Shown piece by piece: positions 17,195 through 19,442 of a stretch of 64,000 nt of DNA; position 1 is the first letter of the stretch; every line of letters begins with the position of its first letter. This DNA is from Cyanobium sp. Morenito 9A2. GTDB taxonomy: Bacteria > Cyanobacteriota > Cyanobacteriia > PCC-6307 > Cyanobiaceae. The stretch is taken from contig NZ_JAGQBJ010000005.1 in NCBI RefSeq assembly GCF_024345575.1, positions 1 to 64,000 on the forward strand, written 5' to 3'. The notes below the pieces were generated by a model, which was given only the letters and a program-made list of their open reading frames with translations, did not search any database and was not told the DNA's origin. The position numbers were made by a program, and so were the translations under genes.

Positions 17195-18238
17195 TTGATT
17201 CCGCTGCGTTCGCCCCAGGAGGCCCGCCGGCCCACGGCGGTGGCCCTCGGCAGCTTTGATGGTCTGCACCGGGGCCACCGGCGGGTGATCGAGGCGGTCA
17301 CCGGCTGGCGGCCCGCCCCGTCCCGGACCCCGCCGGGGCCCGTTCCCGTACCGACGGTGCTGAGCTTCTGGCCCCACCCCCGGGAGGTGCTCTACGGCGA
17401 CACGCGCCTCCGCCTCGACCTGCCGGTGGAGAAGCTCAGCCTGCTCGACCCATTGGGCATCGAACAGCTGGTGCTGGTGCCCTTCGATCGCGACCTGGCG
17501 GCCCTGAGTCCGGAGGCCTTCATCGAGCAGGTGCTCGTGGGTCAGCTGCAGGCGCGGGTGGTGGCCGTGGGGGAGAACTTCCGCTTCGGGGCGGGCCGCA
17601 GCGGCGACGCCGCGGCGCTGGTGGCCCTGGGCGCCCGCCATGGCCTTGAGGTTCGCGTCTTGCCGATGCTCCAGGACAACGGCGAGCGTTTCAGCAGCAG
17701 CCGCATCCGCAAGGCGTTGTCCATGGGCGACCTGCAGGAGGCCACCCGGTTGCTGCAGCGTCCCTATCGCTTCAGTGGCCGGGTGGTGCGCGGCCGTGGC
17801 CTCGGCCGTGAGATCGGCTGGCCCACGGCCAACCTGCAGGTGGACGGCCGCAAGTTTCTGCCCCTGGAAGGGGTCTATGCCGCCTTCGCGCAGCTGGGTG
17901 GCGGGCCGCCGCTGGCGGCGGTGATGAACCTCGGTCCCCAGCCGACTGTGGATCCGATGGCCCCCTCGGCGGTGGAGGTGCACCTGCTCGACCGCCAGCT
18001 GGAGCTGGAGGGCCGCGAGCTGGTGGTGGAGCCGCTGGCCCTTCTGCGGCGCCAGCAGCGCTTTTCAGGCCTGGAGGAACTCAGTGCCCAGATCGCCCGT
18101 GATGCCGACCGGGCCCGGGAACTGACCGGGGCCGCGTGCCCTCAACCCAGCGTCGGTGGGGGCTCAGGCGGCGGGGTAGGCGTTGGTCAGGCCCCAGATG
18201 ATGAAGGCGCCGATGCCCCCCAGCAGCAGAATCCCTGA
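17195..18238 (+). CDS. ribF: Bifunctional riboflavin kinase / FAD synthetase
   Basis: The enzyme makes FMN and then FAD. The N-terminal adenylyltransferase has ALGSFDGLHRGHRR and FSSSRIRKAL. The C-terminal flavokinase has GRGLGREIGWPTANL and PLEGVYAA. A TTG start gives the typical MIPLRSPQEARRPTAVAL. The last ~35 residues (PSVGGGSGGGVGVGQ...QQQNP) are low in complexity, are not a feature of the family, and lie antisense to a 38-codon ORF, so the tail may simply be read-through of shared sequence. Confidence 0.95.
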   Translation: MIPLRSPQEARRPTAVALGSFDGLHRGHRRVIEAVTGWRPAPSRTPPGPVPVPTVLSFWPHPREVLYGDTRLRLDLPVEKLSLLDPLGIEQLVLVPFDRDLAALSPEAFIEQVLVGQLQARVVAVGENFRFGAGRSGDAAALVALGARHGLEVRVLPMLQDNGERFSSSRIRKALSMGDLQEATRLLQRPYRFSGRVVRGRGLGREIGWPTANLQVDGRKFLPLEGVYAAFAQLGGGPPLAAVMNLGPQPTVDPMAPSAVEVHLLDRQLELEGRELVVEPLALLRRQQRFSGLEELSAQIARDADRARELTGAACPQPSVGGGSGGGVGVGQAPDDEGADAPQQQNP

Positions 18239-18280
18239 GATCAGCACCAGCATCGGGTTGTCCGCCTCTCCCTGAGCCAT
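18164..18280 (-). CDS. 38-aa single-span membrane protein
   Basis: The minus strand encodes an ATG-started 38-aa protein with a short polar N-terminus (MAQGEADNP), one hydrophobic span (MLVLISGILLLGGIGAFIIW) and the tail GLTNAYPAA. Its form resembles the many small photosynthetic-membrane subunits, but it matches none I know (not PetN, PetG, PetL, PsbN or PsaM), so no function is assigned. Its last 75 nt are antisense to the ribF 3' end. The clean TM composition argues that it is coding. Confidence 0.7.
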   Translation of the reverse strand: MAQGEADNPMLVLISGILLLGGIGAFIIWGLTNAYPAA

Positions 18281-18356: not shown

Positions 18357-19442
18357 ATGGAGTCTTTGCCCCCGGATGTCGCCCCCGCCAGAGCCCTGGC
18401 TGAGCCCAGCGCCGCAGCGGACGGTGCGGCGATCGCCCGGTTGCTGGATGCCAATCTGGATCGCGCCCGTGAGGGCCTGCGGGTGATCGAAGACTGGTGC
18501 CGATTCGGCCTCGATCGCGATGACCTGGTGGCCCGCACCAAAGACCTGCGCCAGCGCCTGGGTCTGCTGCACGAGGAGCGCTTCAAGCAGGCGCGTCACA
18601 CCGCCTCCGATCCGGCCACGGGCCTGGGCCATCCCGCCCAGGAGACGCGGCGGGCCCCCTCCCAGGTGGTGGCCGCCAACTGCGCCCGGGTGCAGGAGGC
18701 CCTGCGGGTGCTGGAGGAATTTGCGCGCAGCGAGGCACCGGAGCTCGCACGCCAGGCGGCGGCTGGGCGCTATGCCCTCTACGACCTGGAAGTGGCGGTG
18801 CTGCGGGCCCGTCAGGGGGGCCATGGGCGTCGCCAGCAGCTGGCCCAGTGCCGGCTCTACCTGATCACCAGCCCCTCACCCCGGCTGGAGGCCACCGTGG
18901 CCGCCGCCCTCGAGGCGGGGGTGCGGCTGGTGCAGTACCGCAGCAAGGAGGCCCCCGATGGCGAGCGCTGGCAGGAGGCCCGGGCCCTGCGCCAGCTCTG
19001 CGCCCGCCACGGGGCCCTGTTCATCGTCAACGACCGCATTGATCTGGCCCTGGCCCTCGACGCCGACGGGGTGCACCTGGGCCAGGGGGATCTGCCCCCC
19101 GCCGTGGCCCGCCGGCTGCTGGGGCCCGAGCGACTGATCGGGCGCAGCACGGGTGAGCTGGCCCAGCTGCACCAGGCGGTGGCCGACGGCTGTGACTACG
19201 TGGGGGTGGGCCCGGTCAACGCCACACCGACCAAACCGGGCCGGGAACCCGTGGGGCTCTCCTATGTGCGCCAGGCGGCGGCGGAATCGCCCCTTCCTTT
19301 CTTTGCCATCGGCGGCATCGATGCCCTCACCTTGGCTGCGGTGCTGGCGGCGGGGGCCGAACGGGTGGCGGTGGTGCGGGCGATCACCGACGCGGCCGAC
19401 CCCGGCCAGGTCAGCCGCGACCTGCTGGAGGCCCTGGCATGA
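18357..19442 (+). CDS. thiE: Thiamine-phosphate synthase with N-terminal ThiD2-like domain
   Basis: ThiE couples HMP-PP and the thiazole phosphate to thiamine phosphate. The C-terminal ~210 residues are the ThiE barrel: CRLYLITSPSPRLEATVAAAL, VQYRSKEAPDGER, FIVNDRIDLALALDADGVHLGQ and PVNATPTKPGREPVG. The N-terminal ~150 residues (LLDANLDRAREGLRVIEDWCR, QVVAANCARVQEALRVLEEFAR) resemble the ThiD2 domain, linked to HMP-P kinase activity, so one protein may do two steps. thiS follows 13 nt later. Confidence 0.93.
   Translation: MESLPPDVAPARALAEPSAAADGAAIARLLDANLDRAREGLRVIEDWCRFGLDRDDLVARTKDLRQRLGLLHEERFKQARHTASDPATGLGHPAQETRRAPSQVVAANCARVQEALRVLEEFARSEAPELARQAAAGRYALYDLEVAVLRARQGGHGRRQQLAQCRLYLITSPSPRLEATVAAALEAGVRLVQYRSKEAPDGERWQEARALRQLCARHGALFIVNDRIDLALALDADGVHLGQGDLPPAVARRLLGPERLIGRSTGELAQLHQAVADGCDYVGVGPVNATPTKPGREPVGLSYVRQAAAESPLPFFAIGGIDALTLAAVLAAGAERVAVVRAITDAADPGQVSRDLLEALA

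Follow-up and report, generated by a model that had tools for sequence, protein, structure and literature searches.

The window analysed here is the whole stretch of 64,000 nucleotides, and the genes of concern occupy a short part of it. A bifunctional riboflavin kinase/FAD synthetase gene, ribF, and a thiamine phosphate synthase gene lie in the same orientation, and between them, on the opposite strand, lies a small ORF whose 3' end runs into that of ribF (Table 1). The thiamine phosphate synthase bears an N-terminal domain of the ThiD2 family; the NCBIfam equivalog for this form is NF002727.

Table 1. Features at the ribF–ndhQ–thiE locus (positions in the window)
Feature	Position	Strand	Remarks	Basis
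ribF, bifunctional riboflavin kinase / FAD synthetase	17195–18238	+	conserved core to about 18124 (about residue 310)	Pfam, NCBIfam
Non-conserved RibF tail	18125–18238	+	18164–18238 antisense to ndhQ	tail comparison, selection pattern
RibF stop TGA	18236–18238	+	complement of the ndhQ Ser15 codon TCA	
ndhQ (NDH-1L subunit NdhQ)	18164–18280	−	38 aa plus stop	translation, PDB match, homologues in family genomes
Predicted transmembrane stretch	18196–18253	−	about residues 10–28; the helix may extend a few residues beyond	hydropathy only
thiD2-thiE gene (thiamine phosphate synthase)	18357–19442	+	divergent neighbour conserved beside ndhQ	Pfam, NCBIfam, synteny

The minus-strand ORF translates to MAQGEADNPMLVLISGILLLGGIGAFIIWGLTNAYPAA*, a protein of 38 aa. 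It has one hydrophobic stretch, at residues 10–28, with a Kyte-Doolittle peak of 2.62 in a 19-residue window, and, as is characteristic of NdhQ, is predicted to have a single transmembrane helix and a mass below 5 kDa. Translation and hydropathy thus confirm the initial annotation, which had described a 38-aa, single-helix ORF on the minus strand that overlaps ribF in antisense by 75 nt. An open frame at this position is weak evidence on its own, because 36 ORFs of at least 25 aa are listed in this GC-rich stretch, several of them antisense to genes; two others, of 247 aa (minus strand) and 30 aa (plus strand), span the ndhQ site itself. The ORF rises above chance because of its homology and its conserved position. 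The best homologue, in a different genome of this genus, has an E value of 7.0e-20; elsewhere in the family the values run from 3e-16 to 4e-8. A promoter scan found no promoter-like site at ndhQ, and a clear ribosome-binding site is not visible upstream.

Comparison with all PDB chains at E<=10 gave NdhQ chains as the sole matches of the 38-aa protein: 6khi_Q (1.6e-4), 6l7o_Q (6.8e-4) and 6hum_Q (0.011). A profile of 18 sequences (A1) again matched solely these three chains, at 2.5e-7, 2e-6 and 1e-4, and the similarity to the solved NdhQ chains extends across the whole core. Thermosynechococcus NdhQ (chain Q of 6khi/6khj, 6l7o/6l7p, 6nbx/6nby and 6hum) has 45 residues, of which 10–45 align with profile positions 1–36. 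The two proteins share a polar start, one helix and a W.L..AY end, whereas the ORF product lacks the first nine residues, is richer in Gly within its helix (LLLGGIG) and ends in WGLTNAYP. NdhQ of Synechocystis 6803 (Norf6), according to a table in PMC5126843, is likewise the product of a very small ORF, of 46 aa compared to 38 aa here. The match of the single protein to solved NdhQ is only moderately strong. The 38-aa protein matches no Pfam family, and NCBIfam, which has no model for it, gave a single chance match of 11.4 bits where the cut-off is 60; PHROGs gave no family for NdhQ, and no match was found in the phage collection. The profile libraries Pfam and NCBIfam, used in annotation, therefore cannot call ndhQ.

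The small subunits of photosystem I, photosystem II and cytochrome b6f are established to be of the same size and form, and the single-protein match to NdhQ reaches an E value of only 1.6e-4; the ORF could thus encode another single-helix photosynthetic subunit that resembles NdhQ by composition. This is highly improbable. Chains of the photosystems and cytochrome b6f are numerous in the PDB, yet none was matched at E 10 with either the protein or the profile. Moreover, the match to NdhQ is not confined to the helix but takes in the polar ADxP start and the W.L..AY end, and among genomes outside the family the same search recovers proteins that have an extended NRGIM start. The initial annotation had proposed that the size and form fit those of small subunits in photosynthetic or NDH complexes, and the choice falls to the latter, with NdhQ of NDH-1L matched and no other PDB chain. 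NdhQ is a known kind of protein; what changes is that an unexplained small ORF becomes a named subunit of a cyclic-electron-flow complex across picocyanobacteria.

The gene is widespread in the family. In an even draw, ndhQ was found in 127 of 151 family genomes (E<=0.001), and another family sample contained it in 31 of 37, each match having E<=3.4e-8. Of 23 genomes from outside the family, 16 gave a match at E<0.005, and 15 of the 16 copies were fetched. Within the family ndhQ is flanked by ribF and thiE in the same order and orientation at 29 of 30 loci, the remaining locus ending at a contig edge; a RibF search gave 80 named loci, and in 76 of them ndhQ lies on the opposite strand at the ribF end. 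Neither ribF nor thiE was found next to ndhQ at the 15 loci fetched from outside the family, within up to 3 kb per side, so the ribF-ndhQ-thiE arrangement is picocyanobacterial as far as sampled. In one family genome (G158; loci L090 and L059) ribF is separated from the ndhQ-thiE pair, and ndhQ remains beside thiE on another contig.

Over its last 75 nt, stop codon included, ndhQ overlaps the ribF end in antisense, and the overlap is codon-aligned, every RibF codon in it being the reverse complement of an ndhQ codon. The RibF tail reads GAACPQPSVGGGSGGGVGVGQAPDDEGADAPQQQNP. Across 76 loci the overlap is 75 nt in 42, 72 nt in 3 and 4–27 nt in 19; in the other 12 there is none, ribF ending 2–314 nt short of ndhQ. 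Selection on the two strands was compared with 64 loci that have the 75-nt overlap, which reduce to 52 distinct blocks. With Ser15 left out, the per-site difference is 0.145 at the first, 0.111 at the second and 0.290 at the third ndhQ codon position; changes gather at ndhQ third positions, which are RibF first positions. This is the pattern of a minus-strand gene with the RibF tail under little constraint. Across the 52 blocks, the ndhQ frame has a pN/pS of 0.348 and the RibF frame one of 1.053; in 297 close pairs the values are 0.326 and 1.417. The ratios for the two frames are not independent of one another because the frames overlap. The ndhQ frame in the overlap is under purifying selection and the RibF tail is not. 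The proposal of the initial annotation that selection acts on the microprotein rather than on the RibF tail was upheld by this comparison of synonymous and non-synonymous change. Loss of conservation in the minus-strand frame, or conservation of the RibF tail in its stead, would have spoken against that proposal; neither was found, since the tail differs between genera in both length and sequence.

The minus-strand ORF is, to judge from these comparisons, a real ndhQ gene in a shortened form. The basis for this is homology, conservation across the family, a conserved position flanked by ribF and thiE, and the selection seen on the frame. Here and in several related lineages, the ribF frame would have extended into ndhQ as far as the complement of the Ser15 codon TCA, and the RibF tail would therefore be a by-product of ndhQ coding. 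The explanation as a whole, in which the ORF is ndhQ, its product is by homology the single-helix subunit of NDH-1L, and the RibF tail follows from ndhQ coding, is held with very high confidence. A chance frame antisense to ribF, held open by the codon bias of the RibF tail, was considered as well, as chance ORFs are many in this GC-rich stretch and several are antisense to genes. However, the ndhQ frame is conserved even where the overlap is lacking (the gap in 12 of the 76 named loci) and the selection pattern sits on the minus strand; together with the presence in family genomes, these observations refute a chance frame, which is left with a negligible probability. It is just as implausible that the stretch is mainly an antisense or terminator element for ribF with coding secondary, for although ribF and ndhQ converge and overlap by 75 nt, relatives range from that overlap to a gap of 314 nt, a terminator scan found no terminator-like hairpin, and selection in ndhQ acts at the amino-acid level.

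The RibF stop, being the complement of an ndhQ Ser codon, may constrain that codon. Ser15 is TCA in 55 of 55 distinct RibF loci with the ribF stop at that place, versus 10 of 23 in which ribF stops elsewhere (Fisher p 5e-9), a figure that is partly circular because the 75-nt overlap requires a stop at the Ser15 codon. The non-circular part is that no RibF frame passes Ser15: the overlap exceeds 75 nt in 0 of 134 locus records, some of which come from the same genome. TCA is a rare codon, making up 3.4% of Ser codons in the ribF core and thiE of loci with GC>0.6. Selection on the Ser15 codon TCA is suggested by these observations but is not shown, because the RibF tree contains only four independent supported pairs (sign test p 1). 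Omitted from the Ser15 analysis were loci without an ATG near the expected start (L018, L037, L048) and those not matched by the motif expression (L027, L028), and the codon count omitted L105, which has Arg in place of Ser15. On a small scale, the overlap clearly illustrates how the stop codon of one gene can fall inside a rare codon of the gene antisense to it.

The ORF lacks the canonical NdhQ N-terminus of the MSDLNRGIMKF type and starts instead at a Met internal to that motif; picocyanobacterial NdhQ is mostly without the canonical nine-residue N-terminus. Outside the family, a motif of the type (N/D)RG(I/S)M precedes the helix in 14 of the 15 fetched copies, mostly as NRGIMKF.GADSP. Within it, the spongiarum-type loci L011, L161, L167, L168 and L170 keep NDFNRGIMRFDGADHP, or nearly so, in open frame. 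With start codons that are putative, this reads as a shortening of the NdhQ N-terminus within the family, and the canonical N-terminus is regarded as a variable rather than a defining part of the protein.

In published work on NDH-1L, NdhQ lies next to NdhD1 and NdhF1 together with a carotenoid (PMC6992706, PMC7021789), and deletion of NdhP or NdhQ is reported to lead to disassembly of NDH-1L (PMC6992706). By homology, the ndhQ product would sit as a single helix on the exterior of the membrane arm of NDH-1L, in contact with NdhD1 and NdhF1, and would help to keep the distal module on this complex, which serves cyclic electron flow and respiration. The module that NdhQ contacts is represented in the window's own genome, which encodes an NdhF above the NCBIfam cut-off and an adjoining antiporter-like gene (G000:C23:42934-46576). 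Expression of the ORF, insertion of its product into the membrane, binding to NdhD1 and NdhF1 and a stabilising role are all inferred from the published work on Thermosynechococcus and Synechocystis.

The misses among the 151 family genomes cluster in two genera: g18, probably high-light Prochlorococcus by our presumption, and g6, which we take to be a Cyanobium-like genus of the Cyanobium gracile type. Whole-genome profile searches at E<=0.01 found ndhQ absent from 10 of 10 tested g18 genomes and 8 of 11 tested g6 genomes, the best miss being G175 with E 0.024 over 16 positions. At four g18 loci, 23–47 nt without ndhQ separate the ribF stop from the first aligned base of thiE. Likewise, four of six g6 loci (L057, L058, L061, L062) have 35–138 nt there that give no match to ndhQ; at the remaining pair, L059 and L060, thiE does not adjoin ribF. 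Synechococcus sp. CCY 9618 (L131) and Cyanobium sp. CZS25K (L151) are also without ndhQ at the syntenic site. The g18 genomes measure 1.6–1.7 Mb, with a locus GC of 0.32. The 11 rows that lack ndhQ require two changes on the RibF tree, both forced by starred branches. Not counted as losses were G072 and G165, in which the ribF match is also missing; G012, G015, G020 and G034, which are 53–88% complete; and L121, which probably belongs to genome G158, where ndhQ adjoins thiE elsewhere (L090). L138 is probably the same as G006:C23 and was counted once.

All six genomes without ndhQ that were tested (three of g18 and three of g6) encode NdhF above the family cut-off together with the adjoining antiporter-like gene. 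Probably, two or more losses of ndhQ occurred among picocyanobacteria that keep NdhF1 and the adjoining antiporter-like (NdhD-like) gene, one in the high-light Prochlorococcus type and another in the Cyanobium gracile-type clade. If these losses are true, NDH-1L of those clades must be built or stabilised otherwise. As two clades are without ndhQ, NdhQ is not indispensable to NDH-1L everywhere. The two absences would provide natural forms of NDH-1L without NdhQ, and the requirement for NdhQ in stability becomes testable across strains. The interest is modest for the ndhQ gene itself and somewhat greater for the two absences. NdhQ has been mapped on a cyanobacterial tree that includes WH 5701, WH 8102 and Prochlorococcus CCMP1375 (PMC12038448); the available part of that paper does not comment on Cyanobium gracile or on high-light Prochlorococcus, and the absences of ndhQ may already be in print.

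Finally, some minor observations concern NdhQ-like sequences in other genomes. Loci L087, L088 and L089 (G035:C1:1654634-1654759 and relatives) encode a second single-helix protein, of 42 aa, whose end, WGS(I/V)AA(L/F)I.WGV.SAYPA, resembles that of NdhQ. It co-occurs with ndhQ and is matched in 7 of the 151 family genomes, of which five belong to genus g35; of the other two matches, G064:C97 is that genome's own ndhQ. The 42-aa protein is possibly a diverged NdhQ paralogue. Locus L148 bears cyanobacterial ribF, ndhQ and thiE, although the title of its contig names a Bifidobacterium breve MAG; the title is probably wrong. A weak NdhQ-like match (E 0.016) at L086 (G005:C4:206854-206952) lies in a separate small ORF that ends in ITALVIWGLFNAYPNML.
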